Of a stretch of DNA of 21,018 nt, positions 4,458 to 19,677 are shown in pieces. The notes beneath the pieces were generated by a model that was not told the origin of the DNA, did no database searches, and saw only the letters and a program-made list of their open reading frames with translations. The stretch's first letter is position 1; each line of letters begins with the position of its first letter. The position numbers and the translations under genes are program-made. The DNA lies in the IMG/VR virus record IMGVR_UViG_3300037070_000962, positions 1-21,018 of that record; one strand, written 5' to 3'. This stretch comes from a virus.

Positions 4458-5840
4458 ATGGCTGATAGTCAACCAACAATCGGTAACTTTACCCTTCGCG
4501 ATGGTGAAGCTGCTGGGACTAAAACTAAAACGCTTAGATTCTCGCTGCCCGGCGTGCTAAAACCAGCAGCGTCATGTACTCTCACTTTTGATGCCAGTAG
4601 TGATGAGAATCGTATCGCGAAGAGTGTTGGTATCCTCACCACTGATAAGAGCATCTTTTTTCCGGGCGGCGTTGGTGGTTCTGTAGAAGGTTGGACGTTC
4701 ACCCCTGACTTTCATGATCCGTGCAATAACCCCGCAGGTATCTCCGAATGTGAGATGTTCGGCGAGCTTACTGGTAATTGGACTGGCGAGTATACGAAGT
4801 GTCGTGTTAAGTTTAAGTACACTCCTAACTGTGACCCACACGTCAACCTAACTTCATACAGTGCTAGTTCACCATGTTCGTCACCTACGCAGTATGGTCC
4901 GCATATCTTGCCGAAGTCGTATTTCTTTTTCGACATTGGACCCGCTAGGAAGATCGGACTCCCAGCCCCGAACCTTACCTATGTATATGTAGACGGTACA
5001 GCTTCTACCGCTGCGGAGTATGGACCGGGTAACGAGATGGCGAATCAAAGGGAGCCACTATCGTGTACTCTTGAGTGCTTGAATCTCGGTGAATTTGAGT
5101 ACATAAAACTATGCGACGGTAACCCGGCGGAGAGTAGCACGGTTGAGGCGGTGCTTGTACAGTATGGGTTCGGTGGACCTACGTATGCGTATGTCCGTGA
5201 GAGCTTCACTGGTGGTACGTTCTCAGGTATTCCCATCGGTGGTAAGATTGTAGAAGCGGACGCCGAAGAAATCTATGGTTGCTATCGCGCTGGTGCGACT
5301 CCCTGTGACTACGGGGCCGCCTACCCTGAAAACTACTACAGTCTAGGCTACTACTTAGACGCGACACTGACTGTAACTGAGGACTCCACCCCCACTGCTT
5401 GTGTACCACTTGTAGCATCACCTTTCTCAGGTTCTGACACCACAACAGGTGGGTTTGAAATTTGTGAAGGTGGAAACATGGTTGCTAATTGGGTACATCG
5501 TGAGTTCGATGTAACCCTAACGGATTCCATTACAATTATCGGTAAGAGAGCATATAGTGAGTTCACCGCTACTTTTGATGTCTCAGTTACTTTTTCTAAG
5601 AACGCCTGTGATACAATACCAACACACGTAATAAGTTGTTCCTGCACCGCTGTGGCCACTAGGACTTGTACGTATGATGGACCATATGATCCTGTTCAGG
5701 TACTGCTGGGTGAAATTACGTTTGAGTGCTCAAATCGTAAGATCAGTGTTTACGCCACCCCAAACATGACAGAGACGTTCCCGGGCTCCGGATCCATTCG
5801 CGGAGTCGTGCGCGTAATTGCGAGGCTTGGCAGTGCTTAA
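4458..5840 (+). CDS. Cysteine-rich, beta-strand-rich protein of unknown function
   Basis: A 460-residue protein, rich in Thr, Ser, Gly, Tyr and Cys, with strand-type sequence throughout and 18 cysteines by eye (for example ISCSC near residue 395). No signal peptide or membrane segment is visible, and no family is recognised. Composition fits a virion surface protein such as a head fibre, decoration or adhesin, stabilised by disulfides or metals. That is inference. It lies in the packaging block, between the zinc-ribbon gene and TerL, where a structural protein is unusual. The frame opens at GTG 4449, but ATG 4458 is preferred: it follows the preceding stop (4455) by two bases and gives a cleaner N-terminus (MADSQPTIGN). 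Confidence 0.7.
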   Translation: MADSQPTIGNFTLRDGEAAGTKTKTLRFSLPGVLKPAASCTLTFDASSDENRIAKSVGILTTDKSIFFPGGVGGSVEGWTFTPDFHDPCNNPAGISECEMFGELTGNWTGEYTKCRVKFKYTPNCDPHVNLTSYSASSPCSSPTQYGPHILPKSYFFFDIGPARKIGLPAPNLTYVYVDGTASTAAEYGPGNEMANQREPLSCTLECLNLGEFEYIKLCDGNPAESSTVEAVLVQYGFGGPTYAYVRESFTGGTFSGIPIGGKIVEADAEEIYGCYRAGATPCDYGAAYPENYYSLGYYLDATLTVTEDSTPTACVPLVASPFSGSDTTTGGFEICEGGNMVANWVHREFDVTLTDSITIIGKRAYSEFTATFDVSVTFSKNACDTIPTHVISCSCTAVATRTCTYDGPYDPVQVLLGEITFECSNRKISVYATPNMTETFPGSGSIRGVVRVIARLGSA

Positions 5841-5847
5841 TATATCA

Positions 5848-7434
5848 ATGGGGGATAGACTTCACCAGAAGCTCACGCAGAAAGCTGCGGAGCTTGGTGG
5901 TAAGTCTGACCTACCTACAATTGAATGGGCGAAGAAATATTGCCCTGAGCATACCCGTCGTTCAATGTGTGATCTACATATTGAGCTTGCGAGTACGGCA
6001 GATGAACTTCGATATACGCGTGGGCAGAATCGGTGTATCATCGCGCCACGCGGTAATGCTAAATCTACGTGGATGTCACTAATCAATCCCCTCCGCGCCA
6101 TCTGTGAAAAGACGGAGAGGTATATTCTTATTATCGCTGACACTGCTGATCAGGCTGCGAAGCATCTTGCTGCGATTAAGGATGAACTTCTCTACAACGA
6201 GGAGTTGATCGCGGAGTACCCATTGGCATGTCAGGAAGGTGATGTCTGGAACGCAGACAGAATCGAGACTAAGAATGGCGTATGCGTTGAAGCTATTGGT
6301 AAAGGCGCGAAAGCACGCGGACGCCGCTATAAGCGTTATCGCCCTACTCTTGTTATTGTCGACGATCCCCAGGGTGACGAGGACGTTGAGTCCCCGGATA
6401 CACGTACGAAGGATATGGCTTGGTTCGACAAAGCGCTCATGTATGTTGGAGACACGGATACTAACTTCTTTATTGTGGGAACAATGCTTCACAGAGAGTG
6501 TATCGTAGCACAGCTGGAGAAGCGCCCCAACTTTATCACGATCAAGCTGGCATCCATCCGTGAATGGCCGACCAACATGGATCTGTGGAATGATTGGGAG
6601 AATCTATACACCTCGTTCGTCCCTGGCGCAGCAGCTATCGCTGATAAGTTCTACATCGAGCACAAGTCTAATATGGACGCAGGCGCTGTAGTTCTATGGC
6701 CGGAGAAGGAGGATCTCTATGAGCTGATGAAGATCCGTGCAATCGGACACAGTGCATTCAACTCAGAGAAGCAGAACGATCCACGCGATCCATCTAAGTG
6801 TGAGTTTGACGAAGCTTGGGTGTCACCAGATCGTAAGGATGTGTGGTATCACTCACGCCCAGCCTCCGCTAAGTGTATCTGCGTGATGTATTGTGACCCT
6901 GCAAAGGGTGGTGAAACCAAGAAGCATGATGACGGTGCTATCGTCTCACTATTCTACGACATAGACAAGCGTCGCGCGTACGTTGAAGTACAGCTAAAGA
7001 AGCAGCCAGTCAACATGATGCTTGCGGATCTAATCAAGCTGCGTAAGATAAACCAACCTGAGTATGTTGGATTTGAAATCAACGGATTCCAGGAGCTAGC
7101 AGCGTCACAGCTTGAAGTAGAAGATCCTTTCTGCCCCATCTTTCCTATCGAAAATCGTGTTAATAAACAAACACGCATAAGTCGCTTAGGAATTTGGTTG
7201 CAAAGAGGGTTCTTCCTATTTAAAATAGGGTGTCGAGATACGCAGAAACTTATCTCACAGCTTATCGATCATCCACACGCAGCACATGACGACGGCTCGG
7301 ATGGCTTGGAAGGATGCCTTCGCGTTCTATCTAACGTCGTAGACATGAGTGAGATTGAAGTGGGCGCGGAGGTGGAAGTTACTGGTCAGATGGATGACGG
7401 TCTAGGTGATAACATTTTTCAGATAGGTGATTGA
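5848..7434 (+). CDS. terL: Terminase large subunit (TerL), packaging ATPase and nuclease
   Basis: A 528-residue protein. The N-terminal ATPase shows a terminase-type Walker A, APRGNAKST (residues 66-74), and a Walker B, LVIVDDP (168-174). The C-terminal RNase H-like nuclease shows YCDPAKGG with Asp350, YVGFEINGF with Glu410, and the acidic DDGSDGLEG (481-489). It pumps DNA into the prohead and cuts the concatemer, partnering with TerS and the portal. Length and domain order are normal for TerL. The start is uncertain: the frame opens at TTG 5818, GTG 5833 has GAGG seven bases upstream, and ATG 5848 has no clear ribosome binding site. ATG was chosen by codon preference. If 5833 is right, the protein gains five residues and overlaps the previous gene by eight bases. 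Confidence 0.95.
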   Translation: MGDRLHQKLTQKAAELGGKSDLPTIEWAKKYCPEHTRRSMCDLHIELASTADELRYTRGQNRCIIAPRGNAKSTWMSLINPLRAICEKTERYILIIADTADQAAKHLAAIKDELLYNEELIAEYPLACQEGDVWNADRIETKNGVCVEAIGKGAKARGRRYKRYRPTLVIVDDPQGDEDVESPDTRTKDMAWFDKALMYVGDTDTNFFIVGTMLHRECIVAQLEKRPNFITIKLASIREWPTNMDLWNDWENLYTSFVPGAAAIADKFYIEHKSNMDAGAVVLWPEKEDLYELMKIRAIGHSAFNSEKQNDPRDPSKCEFDEAWVSPDRKDVWYHSRPASAKCICVMYCDPAKGGETKKHDDGAIVSLFYDIDKRRAYVEVQLKKQPVNMMLADLIKLRKINQPEYVGFEINGFQELAASQLEVEDPFCPIFPIENRVNKQTRISRLGIWLQRGFFLFKIGCRDTQKLISQLIDHPHAAHDDGSDGLEGCLRVLSNVVDMSEIEVGAEVEVTGQMDDGLGDNIFQIGD

Positions 7435-11562: not shown

Positions 11563-12756
11563 ATGAGCGAGCTACGTGATCTATTTAAGAAGTGCACTAC
11601 GGCGGAGGCTGTTAAGGCTACCTCCGATCGTATTGTCGATCTAATGCATGCCGATGAGGACACCGGCAAGCGTAAGATTAACTATGAGAAGCTGTCGATC
11701 CGCGATGTCGCGGAGGCTACTCTCGGTGACGATGTTATGCGCAAGCTGGGTAAGACCCAGTCCGAGGGTTTCCTCTCGGTTGGTTCTGAGTCGGTTGATC
11801 CTACCAACCTAAGCGCGTTTACCAACATCACCGGTAACATGATTTTCGAGGCGACCCTTGATTCGTTCAAGGCTGCTGGTCTCGTTGGTGACCAGCTCGT
11901 CACTGCGGAGTCTTCGACCCGCGATGGTGGGCGCGACACCGGGCTAGCTGAGATTGATGACGACGCTATGGTCGTCCCGGAAGCGCATGAGTTCCCGGAT
12001 GTGACGTTCGGTGAAGATTACGTCGAGATTCCTACCTCGGTCAAGCGTGGTATGAAGATCGGTATCACCCGCGAGCTGCTGTTCTTCGATCAGACTGGTA
12101 AGATCCTGGACATGGCCCGTAGCATCGGTGATCGCATGGGCGTCAACAAGGAGAAGCGCATCCTTGATATGGTCCTAGGCGTCACCAACGGCTTCATCCG
12201 CAAGGGTGTCGCTCGTAACACCTACGTCGCTGCTGGCGGTGGTGAGCCCCGTCCGAATCTGCTCGGTGGTAATGCGCTGGTGGATTGGACCGATATCGAC
12301 GCTGTGATGCAGCTGTTCGATGCGATGGGGGATGATCGTGCGACTCCTGAGCCGATCATGGTTGAGCCGAAGCAGATGCTAGTGCCCCGTGCGCTAGAGT
12401 ACACTGCTAAGCGCATCCTGAATGCGACTGATATCCGTGTCGGTAGCGATACCGCCAACACGCAGACCTACAGCACTAATCCTGCTGCTGGTGCTCTGAG
12501 TGTTATCAGCACCCCGTGGTTCACCAAGCGCCTAGTCGCTGCTGGCGTCGATCCCACCGTCGCTGCCGGTCGCTACTATGTTGGTGACTTCAAGCGTGCG
12601 TTCAAGTATCGCACCCTGTTCCCGCTACAGACCATCGCGGCTCAGCACGACAAGGACGCCTTTGAGCGTGATGTTGTCGCTCAGTTCCGTACGAGTGAGC
12701 GTGGCGTGCCGCGTATCGTTGCGCCGTGGTACGTTGCTCAGTTTAATGCCGCCTAA
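11563..12756 (+). CDS. Major capsid protein, HK97-type fold
   Basis: A 397-residue protein preceded by AAAGGA (aaaggatattaaa). The N-terminal ~95 residues are charged and helical (MSELRDLFKKCTTAEAVKAT...) and probably act as the delta or scaffolding-like domain removed by the protease. The remainder carries capsid-like segments: FPDVTFGEDYVEIPTSVKRG, a spine-helix-like ILDMARSIGDRMGVNKEKRI, and RYYVGDFKRAFKYRTLFP near the C-terminus, which is typical of HK97-like P and A domains. It builds the icosahedral shell with the portal and decoration proteins. A strong terminator follows 28 bases after the stop. Leucine is coded mainly by CTA and CTG, with no TTA noticed. Confidence 0.9.
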   Translation: MSELRDLFKKCTTAEAVKATSDRIVDLMHADEDTGKRKINYEKLSIRDVAEATLGDDVMRKLGKTQSEGFLSVGSESVDPTNLSAFTNITGNMIFEATLDSFKAAGLVGDQLVTAESSTRDGGRDTGLAEIDDDAMVVPEAHEFPDVTFGEDYVEIPTSVKRGMKIGITRELLFFDQTGKILDMARSIGDRMGVNKEKRILDMVLGVTNGFIRKGVARNTYVAAGGGEPRPNLLGGNALVDWTDIDAVMQLFDAMGDDRATPEPIMVEPKQMLVPRALEYTAKRILNATDIRVGSDTANTQTYSTNPAAGALSVISTPWFTKRLVAAGVDPTVAAGRYYVGDFKRAFKYRTLFPLQTIAAQHDKDAFERDVVAQFRTSERGVPRIVAPWYVAQFNAA

Positions 12757-14687: not shown

Positions 14688-15212
14688 ATGCCCTCTGCAA
14701 ATCCCGCTATTACGCGCAACCTGCGCGATGCCTTTCTTTATATCTCTGATGGCTCCGGTACGCCGAAGAAGCTAAAGGTCAAGATCGACGAAGGCGACTT
14801 CGCCTTCACCATCGATCGTCCTACTTTCATCATCATGAATCGTGGTGTTATCGATTCGCGTAAGAATGGTGATGAGACTCCGTCTAGCCTAAGCTGGACC
14901 ATGAAGTTTGAGCAGTGGGAATACGATGCTGGTGAAGACACCGGTGTCTCTCCTGCTGATGCTCTACAGGGCGAGGGTGGTGCTACTGATTGGGTTTCTA
15001 CCGACGGTTGTGCTCCTTACTCTGTTGATATCACGTTTGTGCTGAAGGACCCCTGCACTGACGGGATGGCTGAGATTCTCACCTTTAGGAAGTTCCACGC
15101 TGATCAGCTAAGCTTCAAGGAAGGCAGCGAGTTTAACACTCTAGCCATCACCGGTAAGGCCCTACTGGCGAAGCCGGATCGCTCCTACGGCGCTGTTCCC
15201 ACGTTCCCCTAA
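14688..15212 (+). CDS. Major tail (tube) protein
   Basis: A 174-residue beta-rich protein preceded by AAGGA. Features typical of tube proteins are the N-terminal strand AFLYISDGSGTPKKLKVKID, the LSWTMKFEQWEY strand pair, and the C-terminal EFNTLAITGKALL, where tube proteins usually end their fold. Position between terminator and tail assembly chaperone is standard. Hexamers of it would form the tube around the tape measure. No sheath gene is adjacent, supporting a non-contractile tail. Confidence 0.75.
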   Translation: MPSANPAITRNLRDAFLYISDGSGTPKKLKVKIDEGDFAFTIDRPTFIIMNRGVIDSRKNGDETPSSLSWTMKFEQWEYDAGEDTGVSPADALQGEGGATDWVSTDGCAPYSVDITFVLKDPCTDGMAEILTFRKFHADQLSFKEGSEFNTLAITGKALLAKPDRSYGAVPTFP

Positions 15213-15225
15213 TTAGGAAATAACC

Positions 15226-15678
15226 ATGAAATTCAAGGGCGCAACCTTGAACGTTCGTGAATTCACCAACGTTGCTCTTCGTAAAAATCTAGCTATCAAA
15301 GTTGGCGCAATGCCACTTGGTATTGAAAAGGAGTACACTCAAATCTACCCACGTCCAACCCCTCCGTCTAAAACTATCCACAATGTGGGTAAGGCTCCGA
15401 CGAAGGTTGTGGATGATGAGGATGAAACCTATCTAGCGTTGCACAAGGATTGGTTCACGCTACGTAGTTTCTTTGTGTTCTGGAGTGTCATCAAGGATGA
15501 TGAGGATCTCACCTTCGATAATCCTCCGACTTCTATCAACGCGCTAAAGTCATTTGAGCAGGAATTGAAGGCGCATGGTATTAATGACGAGGACATCAAG
15601 AAGGTTATCAATACTGCTTTTGATCTAACTAAGATCACCGATGCCGATATTGAGGATACCAAGAAAAGTTTTACGTAG
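15226..15678 (+). CDS. Tail assembly chaperone, short form (gpG-like)
   Basis: A 150-residue protein, start ATG 15226 after AGGA (taggaaataacc). It is rich in Lys, Asp and Thr, with a C-terminus of helices (INALKSFEQELKAHGINDED, then DIKKVINTAFDLTKITDADI). Position between tail tube and tape measure genes and the existence of a start-less -1 extension mark it as the G part of a G/GT chaperone pair. Such chaperones coat the tape measure protein while the tube polymerises. Residues 34-70 are Pro- and Lys-rich and probably flexible. A minor fraction of ribosomes should shift into the -1 frame near 15670. Confidence 0.8.
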   Translation: MKFKGATLNVREFTNVALRKNLAIKVGAMPLGIEKEYTQIYPRPTPPSKTIHNVGKAPTKVVDDEDETYLALHKDWFTLRSFFVFWSVIKDDEDLTFDNPPTSINALKSFEQELKAHGINDEDIKKVINTAFDLTKITDADIEDTKKSFT

Positions 15679-15881
15679 AGCTTCACGAGGCTGATTCAGC
15701 GATAGCTGCTGCAAAGCAGGAGAAACTACCGGCTGGCCGAACTTCTGCATATCACGTTCTACGTATATGCGAAAGATTTGGCCAGCCTTTTTCTTGGTGG
15801 GAAGGGCTGGATCGTGAAGCTAGAATTAAATACCTAGCCTACCATAGTATACGCAATCAGGAAGATTCCTATGTTCACTGA
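15654..15881 (+). CDS. -1 frame extension of the tail assembly chaperone (gpT part of gpGT)
   Basis: The frame one base back from the short chaperone is open from 15654 (after a TGA at 15651-15653) to a TGA at 15879-15881. It contains no ATG, GTG or TTG, so it can only be made by frameshifting from the upstream gene. It encodes about 69 residues beyond the shift, containing AYHVLRICERFGQPFSWWEG and DREARIKYLAYHS, a typical T-domain sequence. The fused protein would be about 218 residues. It overlaps the tape measure start by 11 bases. T domains recruit the tape measure or tube subunits. This accounts for the otherwise empty 15679-15870 gap. Confidence 0.8.
   Translation, partial: GYQEKFYVELHEADSAIAAAKQEKLPAGRTSAYHVLRICERFGQPFSWWEGLDREARIKYLAYHSIRNQEDSYVH
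15661..15678 (+). other. Probable -1 ribosomal frameshift region
   Basis: Both frames are open between 15654 and 15678, and the zero-frame stop is TAG at 15676. The sequence is aagaaaagttttacgtag. No classical X XXY YYZ heptamer is present. The best candidate is Phe codon TTT at 15670-15672, which can slip back one base onto TTT at 15669-15671, with ACG as the next zero-frame codon. A 5-bp hairpin with a GCAA tetraloop (15706-15719) lies about 33 bases downstream. The shift is inferred from the open frames. The exact site is uncertain. Confidence 0.5.
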
Positions 15882-18800
15882 CGCAGATTTCCAGGCGATC
15901 ATCAAGATCAAGATGGATATGGATGAGGCCGATAAGGCCCTAGCTGGTGCCGCAGAGGCGGTGAAGGCATCCTTCGACAATATGGAAAAAGCTGCGCGGG
16001 AGTATACCCGTCGCATGGAGAAGCTCGCTCAGGATCGCCTAACCGTAGGTGAGATGGAGGAGAAGGCCGACGTAGAAAACCTTAACAATCGTGTTAGACG
16101 GCGGCTAGAGGAATTGGCTGGCGCAGAAAACGCAGCTAAGAAAGATGCCAAAATCCAGCGTGATCTAGCTAGGGAGAAGGGTGAGATTCTTCTAGCGGAG
16201 GAGAAGGCTAACGCGGCTGATTGGAATAACCGTGTTGCTCGTCGCGAAGCTGAACTTAAAGGCGCAGAAAACGCAGTTAAGAAAGAAGCTAAACTCGCTA
16301 ACGATCTAGCTAAGGAGAGGGGTGAAATTCTACTAGCGGAGGAGAAGGCTATTGCTGCTGATTGGAATAATCGTGTTGCTCGTCGTGAAGATGAACTCAA
16401 GGGTAGAGAGAAGGCAGAGCAAGCGGCACTCAAGAACAGCCTAGCCACCGCTGAAGCTGAGCGCAGGGAGAATCTAGCTATTCAAAAAGCTATGGCTCTA
16501 GATCACAAGGCTATGCTTGATAAGAAGCATGCTGATGATGTTGCTTACTCTAAAGAGACTCTAGCGCTAATCGACAATCAGGCTAGGCTACAGGAAGCGC
16601 TGGAAAAGAAAGCTGCGCAGGCGCATGCTGCTGTTCTAGCTGCTGATCGTAAACAAGCTAGCACTGTATCCGGCGCATCGGCTCTTCGTGTCGGCGCGGG
16701 CGCAGCTTCGTTTACTGGAAACTACGGTGCTGCTGGCGGCTTGTATGCGTTAGCGAATGTTGCACAGAATGCCGGGACTATGATCTCAACAGGTATGGCA
16801 CTTGGTGTCGGTGGTGCTGCTGCACTAGCTCTAGCGATTGGTAAGACTACCGTCGAGGGTGAGAAGCTGAACGTGGCTCTTGCTGATATGTCTACGCTAA
16901 TCACCGATGTTAAGTTCGGTAGTGAGCAGTGGGCTGAGACGATGGATCGTGTTAGTGCTTCTGCTATTCAGATTTCAAACACATTCGGATACGACGTTGT
17001 TGACGTTGTGAAGATGTTTAAGGAAGCGCTATCCAGTGGTATCGATGCGGACGAACTACAACAGTTCGGTACGGTGGCTGGTAATATGGCTACTGCGCTG
17101 GGTGTCAGTTTGAATGCCGCGTCTCATACCCTAACGTCATTCAAGGATAACTACCATCTAACCGTCAACGAACTAGCTGACGTTAATAACATCCTATTCA
17201 ATACCATCAACGTCGGTGGTGTGAACGTCGATACTCTTCTAAAGAATATCGGACGCGTTCTACCCGTTGCCAAACAGGCTGGTGTTGGTATCGAGGATTT
17301 GATGACCGCAATATCAGGTCTGTCGCGTACGATGAGTACTGCACAGTCTGTGACTGCGTTGGTTAACGTCATCAACACTCTATCCAATCCGTCTAAGAAA
17401 GCTAAGGCTGAACTGGATAAGCTTGGTATCAGTTATGGTGACGCTGCATTCCGCACTCAGACCTTCATCCAAAAGATGGAAGAGCTGCGGGATAAAACCG
17501 GAGGCACCACCGCTGCGCTAGCTGAGATTTTTCCGAATCAGTTCGGACTCCGTGGTGCCGCAGCACTAACCAGCATGATCGAGCTACTAAAGACAAACAA
17601 CGCTGAAATTAAAAACACCGAAGCCGCTCTAGCCGCAGTCGAGAAGCAGCACGACACTCTTACCTTTAAGATGGCTCGTGATTGGAACATCGTCGCAAAC
17701 GCGTTCACCACCGCTGGAGCGGCGTTGGCGGATAAGGTTGCAAAACCGATGTACACCTTCATGACTAAGTACGCTATCTTCAGCGGTACGATTTTAGGTG
17801 CGACTATCTCTGCTGTATCGAAGTCTGGTCGTGATTCAGACCAGAATGAGAAGTACCGTAAGGAGCTTCAAGACTACATTAAGATGCGTGATAAGGTTTA
17901 TGCAAACTCTGAAAAACAGGGGGATTTCACGATTGGTGATGCAAATTCGGTTTTGAATTTGACTAAGCTAATCATGCGCTACCGTGAGATGGATTTCTTC
18001 GAGCAGGAAATCGCTAAGCACGCTGAGGACGCCCGTAAGAAAATCGCTGACATACCTACAGGTTTCTTCCTTGAGTATGATCCTGAGCAGAAGGATGAAG
18101 AGTCGAAAGCCGCCGCTAAAGCTAGAGAGCGGGAGGTTATGCGCCGTGCCACCGATGAGCAGAAGGCTACACTAAAGGAGATGCAGGATGAGATTACTGT
18201 AGCTACTGAGGGCATCGATCAGTTACGTGCTCGCCTTGTTAATTCTAAGGCACTTGAAATCGATCAGCTGCGTAAGGCGCTTGAACAGGCTCGTATCGAG
18301 TACCAGAATATTGAGAAGGATGAGAAGGCAACTGAGCGGGATAAAAATATCGCAGCTGAAAAACTTGATGGCCTTGTTAAGCTGTACGAGGCAAGCAAGA
18401 AACTGAAACTAAAGCAGGTCGAGGATGAAGTTGAAGTCGTAAATAAGCAGCTTGAGATTCAGAAGGATGCCGTAACTAAATACGAAGACACTATCAAGAA
18501 GCAGCAGCTTAATGTTGATCGTATCGCCGCTGAGAAGCGCATAAAGCTTGAGGAGCAAACCTCGCAGAAGCTATATGACATAGCTCTTGAGTATGATAAG
18601 AAGATGCTAGCCTTCCGTAAAAAGAAGGAAGACCTAGATGAGAAGTATCATAACAAGCTTGACGCTATCAACGAAAAAAGCGAGATGCGGGATAGTGATC
18701 TCAATCAAGCAAACAATGATAACGCGAATGATAGTGGCGGAGGTAATCTACGGTTCCTGCGTAAGCAGGCTGAGGACCTAAAGAATCAGATGGCCAGTGC

Positions 18801-19677
18801 CGCGGCTGCTGGCAAAGATGCGCTGTATGATAAGTTGGTTCAACAGGCACATGGCCTGTATGATAAGATGAAGAGTGCAGCTATCGCTGGTGGCGACGCT
18901 CCTGGTAGATGGTCTGCCGGTCGTGGTATGTCGTTTGAGAATGTGTTCGGTAGCTTCATCCGTGATAACAACAAGACTATCAACAAGATTGCGGAGGATG
19001 GTGCTACATCGGATTATCAGAAGGATCTAAACGATATAGAGAAGGCTAAAGCAATCGCTGAGGCTACTTGGCGGTCTGACACTCAGAAGGAGTTGCTAAA
19101 ACTTAATGAGGGTACTGCCTCTCAGACCACGATCATATCCGGTGTCGGTGCTAGACTGACTGCGGAGCTTGGTTCCGCTGCGGATAAGATTGTTGCTGCG
19201 GTTAGAAACATTCGTCTCGTCGCCGGTGGCGTCACTCCCACCGCTGTCACGCCTGGAGCTACGCCTATAGATAACACTGTACCGATTCCGATTCCTGGTA
19301 TCGATGGACTACCCCCTGCTGATCCAACTGTTCCTGTACCGATTCCTGGTATTGATTTTAATGACAACATCGGTGCGGATTGGAATCAACCGTTCATGAA
19401 GAATAGTGATTGGTCTCTACCTAACACTGTTCCAGTGACCAATAGATCTTCCAGTCCTTCACTTAAGTCAGGTGGACCGGGTAACCTAAATATCGTAGTC
19501 AACGCAAACGGTAAGGATGATGCGGCTGCACTGACGGAAAAGATTCGCACTGTTGTTACGGACCATTATGAAGACAGAAATGTAATTAGACAAGTGAATA
19601 AAACCAATAAAATACCTACACGTAGCTATGCTACCGGATCATCGGCTAACACCCAACCTACCCGCAAGGCGTTCTAA
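15871..19677 (+). CDS. Tail tape measure protein (TP901 family type)
   Basis: A 1268-residue protein that sets tail length and helps eject DNA. Residues about 1-265 are coiled coil with a tandem 47-residue repeat (72-165). Residues about 330-570 match the TP901 tape measure core (for example NVALADMSTLITDVKFGSEQ, SNTFGYDVVDVVKMFKEALS and the later LMTAISGLSRTMSTAQSVTA). Hydrophobic stretches lie at about 285-325 and 605-650. Residues about 700-1000 are Lys/Glu-rich helix. The C-terminus has two copies of a TVPIPIPGID-type proline motif and ends NTQPTRKAF. The length predicts a tail of about 190 nm. The ATG lies inside the end of the chaperone extension (overlap 11 bases), indicating coupled translation. 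Confidence 0.95.
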   Translation: MFTDADFQAIIKIKMDMDEADKALAGAAEAVKASFDNMEKAAREYTRRMEKLAQDRLTVGEMEEKADVENLNNRVRRRLEELAGAENAAKKDAKIQRDLAREKGEILLAEEKANAADWNNRVARREAELKGAENAVKKEAKLANDLAKERGEILLAEEKAIAADWNNRVARREDELKGREKAEQAALKNSLATAEAERRENLAIQKAMALDHKAMLDKKHADDVAYSKETLALIDNQARLQEALEKKAAQAHAAVLAADRKQASTVSGASALRVGAGAASFTGNYGAAGGLYALANVAQNAGTMISTGMALGVGGAAALALAIGKTTVEGEKLNVALADMSTLITDVKFGSEQWAETMDRVSASAIQISNTFGYDVVDVVKMFKEALSSGIDADELQQFGTVAGNMATALGVSLNAASHTLTSFKDNYHLTVNELADVNNILFNTINVGGVNVDTLLKNIGRVLPVAKQAGVGIEDLMTAISGLSRTMSTAQSVTALVNVINTLSNPSKKAKAELDKLGISYGDAAFRTQTFIQKMEELRDKTGGTTAALAEIFPNQFGLRGAAALTSMIELLKTNNAEIKNTEAALAAVEKQHDTLTFKMARDWNIVANAFTTAGAALADKVAKPMYTFMTKYAIFSGTILGATISAVSKSGRDSDQNEKYRKELQDYIKMRDKVYANSEKQGDFTIGDANSVLNLTKLIMRYREMDFFEQEIAKHAEDARKKIADIPTGFFLEYDPEQKDEESKAAAKAREREVMRRATDEQKATLKEMQDEITVATEGIDQLRARLVNSKALEIDQLRKALEQARIEYQNIEKDEKATERDKNIAAEKLDGLVKLYEASKKLKLKQVEDEVEVVNKQLEIQKDAVTKYEDTIKKQQLNVDRIAAEKRIKLEEQTSQKLYDIALEYDKKMLAFRKKKEDLDEKYHNKLDAINEKSEMRDSDLNQANNDNANDSGGGNLRFLRKQAEDLKNQMASAAAAGKDALYDKLVQQAHGLYDKMKSAAIAGGDAPGRWSAGRGMSFENVFGSFIRDNNKTINKIAEDGATSDYQKDLNDIEKAKAIAEATWRSDTQKELLKLNEGTASQTTIISGVGARLTAELGSAADKIVAAVRNIRLVAGGVTPTAVTPGATPIDNTVPIPIPGIDGLPPADPTVPVPIPGIDFNDNIGADWNQPFMKNSDWSLPNTVPVTNRSSSPSLKSGGPGNLNIVVNANGKDDAAALTEKIRTVVTDHYEDRNVIRQVNKTNKIPTRSYATGSSANTQPTRKAF
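16084..16410 (+). repeat. In-gene tandem repeat, 141-base units, in the tape measure gene
   Basis: Two consecutive units (16084-16224 and 16225-16365) plus the first ~15 codons of a third encode a 47-residue motif of the form NNRVxRRxxELxGAENAxKK followed later by GEILLAEEKAxAADW. The DNA copies are close but not identical, with silent differences, so the duplication is not recent. The repeat keeps the reading frame and would add a length of coiled coil. Confidence 0.9.

Follow-up and report, generated by a model that had tools for sequence, protein, structure and literature searches.

How does a virus express a reading frame that has no start codon and lies between a tail gene and the gene for the tape measure protein? 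The question is raised by a 21-kb virus record (IMGVR_UViG_3300037070_000962), the whole 21,018-nucleotide stretch of which is referred to here as the window. It contains a head and a tail module consisting of a Mu-like terminase, a lambda-type portal, a Phage_capsid_4 capsid protein, a neck protein, and then the tail genes. The terminase (5818-7434) is nearest to those of Mu-like phages, at about 33%. The capsid protein (11563-12756) has its relatives among genomes of Pirellulales and Thermoguttaceae, an indication that the host is a planctomycete. The region around the start-less frame is arranged as follows.

14688-15212, + strand: probable major tail protein, the upstream neighbor, named from position and conservation.
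15226-15678, + strand: tail assembly chaperone, a G-type product of 150 amino acids, named from the open reading frame, its predicted fold and its homologs.
15654-15881, + strand: start-less −1 extension (T domain) of 75 codons plus a stop, an open reading frame conserved in relatives.
15654-15678, + strand: 25 nt open in both frames, in which the shift must fall, from direct reading of the sequence.
15871-19677, + strand: tape measure protein (PhageMin_Tail, E 8e-32; TIGR01760).

The tail protein has no family match in PHROGs, Pfam, or NCBIfam. The short open reading frame 15226-15678 lies directly 5′ of the tape measure gene, which is the gene order of the G/GT family, and the tape measure ATG at 15871 gives an 11-nt overlap with the end of the extension. 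The extension lies in the −1 frame relative to this open reading frame and ends with TGA (15879-15881). Direct inspection of 15654-15881 bore out the original prediction that it contains no ATG, GTG, or TTG and that a stop precedes it (TGA, 15651-15653). Its only in-frame near-start codons are ATA at 15702, 15765, and 15849, CTG at 15807, and ATT at 15825. The probability of a 75-codon open run in a given frame is about 1.5% on a first-order Markov background. Codon usage gives weak support to the extension as coding sequence, with 0.06 bits per codon as against 0.43 ± 0.19 for genuine frames and −0.51 ± 0.18 for shifted frames.

Frame 0 ends with GAG GAT ACC AAG AAA AGT TTT ACG TAG, the TAG being at 15676-15678. 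As had also been predicted, none of the 25 nt of the overlap forms an X_XXY_YYZ heptamer. The sole in-register Z_ZZN of the overlap is T_TTT. Chance alone would put an active tetramer in roughly every sixth overlap (six of 256 tetramers, about seven registers), so that T_TTT by itself proves little and the relatives have to decide. The two features at this site are as follows.

15669-15672, + strand: U_UU.U (T_TTT) slip tetramer, the only in-register Z_ZZN.
15666-15672, + strand: AAGTTTT (A_AGT_TTT), one base off the canonical A_AAT_TTT of the viral relative L262.

Searches of phage records by tblastn with the chaperone, the extension, and the tail protein gave no useful match, and single-protein scans of viral contigs returned only one near-identical contig, L002/L100 (IMGVR_UViG_3300037071_000790). 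This contig bears the same metagenome dataset number and is ∼10% divergent from the window over 6.2 kb. The two differ at 16 of 633 positions in the chaperone and extension and at 85 of 525 in the tail protein 14688-15212, an abrupt step in divergence, possibly left by recombination. Relatives of the terminase are Mu-like phages with other tails; they nevertheless yielded a capsid-protein alignment that gave access to the family. With it, viral contigs and Planctomycetota genomes were reached, and a tail-protein alignment brought in further viral contigs. Profiles of the chaperone and the extension both match, side by side, in L101, L261, L262, L264, L132, L129, L272, L268, and L271. The tail-protein search of planctomycete genomes gave loci without a chaperone within 1.5-kb flanks. 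These genomes were reached by a search with the chaperone alignment, which, among 170 genomes from a single planctomycete order, matched 32, once in each. The 31 loci that were read (L289-L319 range) were drawn from this search and from a search of the phylum.

All 31 planctomycete-genome copies carry the T domain in the −1 frame, and with the window, L100, and L268 counted there are 41 −1-frame sequences. A start-less second domain in an overlapping frame, as in the G/GT family, is conserved in the relatives. L271 and L274 carry theirs in the +1 frame, and the direction of the putative shift is variable within the chaperone family. At the same Phe codon L271 (IMGVR_UViG_3300028840_005170, about 4980-4997) has TTT_T in the +1 frame. 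A further planctomycete-genome locus of 18 kb (L320) has a chaperone homolog after a Phage_capsid_4 gene and before neck and tail-protein genes. A 223-amino acid open reading frame, also downstream, has a weak tail or tape-measure match, and no long tape measure gene was seen in the 18 kb. L320 and the loci L289-L319 are possibly short-tailed, perhaps domesticated (gene-transfer-agent-like) elements.

T_TTT or T_TTC occurs at the same codon pair in 40 of the 41 −1-frame sequences, including the window and L100. The window, L100, and L264 have A_AGT_TTT. Most of the sequences have a canonical heptamer as well, among them the viral relatives L101 (G_GGT_TTT), L261 (A_AAT_TTC), L262 (A_AAT_TTT), L132 and L129 (T_TTT_TTG), and L272 (T_TTT_TTA). 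Each of the 31 genome copies has T_TTT or T_TTC, with a canonical heptamer in 24; tetramer-only copies are L290 (G_TCT_TTT), L292 (G_TTT_TTT), L296 (G_GTT_TTT), L303 (G_GAT_TTT), and L299, L300, and L319 (C_TCT_TTC). The exception is L268 (IMGVR_UViG_3300012232_000245, about 2053-2062), where A_AGT_TCC_TGA precedes a −1-frame T domain without any Z_ZZN at the site. The shift in L268 would have to occur without the tetramer, and the Ser tRNA would need a second-position G-U pair. For L264, tRNA-Ser3 might decode a doublet at GCA, an idea that was set aside; the window has no GCA at this position.

A T precedes the Phe codon in eight of eight tested sequences, compared with 18% of Phe codons in background loci. 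Codon usage by itself would give a T at the end of all eight preceding codons with a probability of about 0.001; because the lineages are related, these figures are guides and not tests. The residues read in the −1 frame just after the slip are similar in the clade of the window (KFYVEL, KFYIEL, KFYCEP, KFLIDL, and GFLIDR). On a tree of the chaperone and T domain, the sister of the window is L101 (with a support of 0.80 in a small tree and 0.31 in a larger one), and that of L264 is L262. Parsimony on the chaperone and T domain tree derives the non-canonical state from a canonical ancestor by 7 changes, an approximate count, as the trait columns were kept in that tree and support is weak at several of its deep branches. 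We infer that the canonical state is ancestral and that the first half of the heptamer was lost in the window and in about six other lineages.

The original claim that the extension arises by −1 frameshifting fits the arrangement of about 40 homologous gene pairs, and we consider it very probable that the tail assembly chaperone gene undergoes a G/GT-type programmed −1 ribosomal frameshift at a reduced slip site. Of the three slips first proposed (on TTT next to ACG, or the unusual G AAA AGT or A AGT TTT), it is the first that conservation marks out. In A_AGT_TTT only the TTT re-pairs, whereas L101, L261, and L262 have both halves of the canonical two-tRNA site. The upstream Ser codon AGT has no useful re-pairing on AAG, which argues for a one-tRNA slip on the Z_ZZN motif that is in register where the frame changes. 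The gene layout, its retention in relatives, and the conserved site are observed directly, whereas the slipping itself, its rate and single-tRNA mechanism, the stimulator, and the role of the product are predictions. Most ribosomes would end at the TAG and release the 150-amino acid chaperone. A minority would slip back one base at AGT TTT ACG, with tRNA-Phe moving from UUU 15670-15672 to perfect re-pairing on UUU 15669-15671. Reading would then continue with TAC GTA GAG, and the T domain would be appended, ending at 15881. The fusion junction is predicted to be ...KSFYVELHEADSAIAAAK if the slip follows decoding of the frame-0 TTT, and ...KKFYVEL in other registers. U_UU.U would be the remnant of an ancestral X_XXT_TTY heptamer. 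In lambda the frameshift product links tail-tube subunits to the tape measure, and by analogy the longer product here would do the same. One-tRNA slippage has been described with an empty A site (PMC8211752); the tRNA state at the slip site of the window is one that we infer.

A shift elsewhere in the overlap, either at G_AAA_AGT or by a +2 slip of tRNA-Lys from AAA (15664-15666) to AAG (15666-15668), would also enter the extension frame. However, T_TTT re-pairs better than any alternative and T_TTY alone is kept across the relatives, and we regard a shift at these other registers as improbable. The T domain could also be translated separately, with no fusion, from one of the in-frame ATA, CTG, and ATT codons (ATA 15702, for example) as a non-standard start. 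Such separate translation is rendered still less probable by the lack of an ATG, GTG, or TTG start, by a frame that is open back to the common slip site in 41 of 41 −1 sequences, and by the similarity among relatives of the residues in and just past the overlap.

Some other phages have chaperone genes in a single frame, and the two frames seen here could in principle reflect a mistake in sequencing or assembly, or decay of the gene, in which case no fusion is made. The original prediction had named an error that restores one frame as its refutation. Nevertheless, the divergent contig L100 has no indels in the chaperone gene, where 13 of 15 changes are synonymous; its overlap is identical, and its extension has 1 change in 205 nt. 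Since L100 lacks an indel here and the −1 layout recurs in about 40 distant relatives, sequencing error is discounted, and error or decay is highly unlikely. RNA polymerase slippage that adds or drops a base is equally unlikely, as the T run at the site has only four T's, far short of the run lengths linked to transcriptional slippage (A >7, T >8; PMC3711429).

Two candidate stimulators of the −1 ribosomal frameshift lie near the slip site.

15652-15655, + strand: GAGG, Shine-Dalgarno (SD)-like, a possible stimulator 10 nt before AAGTTTT that recurs in relatives.
15706-15719, + strand: GCAA-loop hairpin with a 5-bp stem, 33 nt 3′ of the slip site, with no evidence of a stimulator role.

The hairpin can be drawn where it was predicted, but a role as stimulator was not upheld. 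The downstream RNA of the window has no extra stability relative to shuffled sequences (z −0.8 to +1; −0.76 for 108 nt), and no shared counterpart of the hairpin was seen in the relatives. L261 and L262 have a better 40-nt hairpin that is not common to the family. The distance from the end of GAGG to the heptamer position downstream is 10 nt in the window, L261, L262, L132, L129, and L272, and 7 nt in L101 and L264. The Glu codon at GAGG is GAG in eight of eight sequences (probability about 0.0009 from locus codon usage), a recurrence that was spotted post hoc; codon choice at other conserved Glu columns follows usage. GAGG is weaker than a full SD sequence and is not general among the planctomycete-genome copies. 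It may aid the slip by pairing with 16S rRNA, and is the better stimulator candidate of the two.

In E. coli, U_UU.U is among the six Z_ZZN tetramers that clearly shift (Sharma 2014; PMC4066793). With the IS3 pseudoknot the ranking is A_AA.G >> U_UU.C > U_UU.U > C_CC.U = C_CC.C > A_AA.A, over a range of 0.26 to 5.6%, and tetramers without a stimulator are near background (average 0.147% versus 0.112%) (PMC4066793). Given how little unstimulated tetramers shift in E. coli, and with no prominent downstream structure in the window, the rate of shifting here could be low.

The chaperone and extension of the window have no significant match in PHROGs, Pfam, or NCBIfam, and a sequence search of solved structures gave no relevant chaperone match; a weak match to BurrH repeats in that search was disregarded. 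An AlphaFold2 model of the chaperone, built from a 10-sequence alignment (pLDDT 82), matched the HK97 tail assembly chaperone (PDB 2OB9) with a Z-score of 8.2 over 99 residues and a root mean square deviation of 3.6, and Bacillus YqbN (PDB 3KLU) with a Z-score of 5.3. Chain 5IR0 scored 4.0 and unrelated chains 2.5 and below; the Foldseek E-value for the fold match was weak (0.13). As modeled, the 15226-15678 product has the HK97 tail assembly chaperone fold. The T-domain model is helical (pLDDT 70) and gave no clear fold match. The extension had been called a typical T domain. The name is based on its position and conservation; the family libraries gave no significant match for the sequence of the window; one T-domain relative matched phrog_9001, "tail assembly chaperone," with an E-value of 0.007.

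The G/GT type of chaperone frameshift is known. What is new, judging from the aligned loci, is a member at a reduced site, in a family in which the upstream half of the heptamer appears to have been lost repeatedly. An apparently site-less frameshift is explained in this way as a canonical heptamer in reduced form, visible only when relatives are aligned, and gene finders that require X_XXY_YYZ would overlook genes like 15226-15881. More tentatively, shifting in this planctomycete-phage family might need one tRNA only, with T_TTY strongly selected, the first heptamer half dispensable and repeatedly lost, and the direction changeable at the same Phe codon (+1 in L271); we put this forward as a possibility on which we would not yet rely. 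If it is true, sites with little activity in E. coli are made to shift usefully by planctomycete ribosomes or by the upstream SD-like element. The family forms a natural series, from G_GGT_TTT and A_AAT_TTT through the reduced A_AGT_TTT, G_TCT_TTT, and C_TCT_TTC to a +1 version, which is suited to direct testing of the share of the upstream tRNA in bacterial −1 frameshifting.

The chaperone is like HK97 2OB9 and YqbN 3KLU in predicted fold but unlike them in sequence (7-8% identity) and in its planctomycete-phage lineage. E. coli dnaX likewise has an SD-like element about 10 nt before its slip heptamer; unlike the window, it combines a strong A_AAA_AAG heptamer with a downstream hairpin. The slip site of lambda is a canonical heptamer, whereas the window has only the second half of one, and no sequence similarity to lambda gpG/gpGT was detected. 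The order of tail protein, chaperone, overlapping −1 extension, and tape measure is nevertheless that of lambda, as is the predicted pair of products, one with a C-terminal T domain and one lacking it. Frameshifts in the tail chaperones of long-tailed dsDNA phages were reportedly treated by Xu, Hendrix and Duda in 2004. They have since been reviewed, with a product ratio of about 30:1 for lambda (PMC5009743). The "twoonefour" motif of PRFect was proposed by inspection from annotated phage tail-chaperone frameshifts, and AAGTTTT fits the name of that motif (two, one, four; XXnYYYY) (PMC10885494). In the slip itself there is a parallel with the Z_ZZN sites of the IS3 and IS1 families. IS3 differs in serving transposition and not tail assembly and in having a downstream pseudoknot, of which none was detected in the window; in both systems one codon re-pairs in the −1 frame, and U_UU.U and U_UU.C both occur in the chaperone family.
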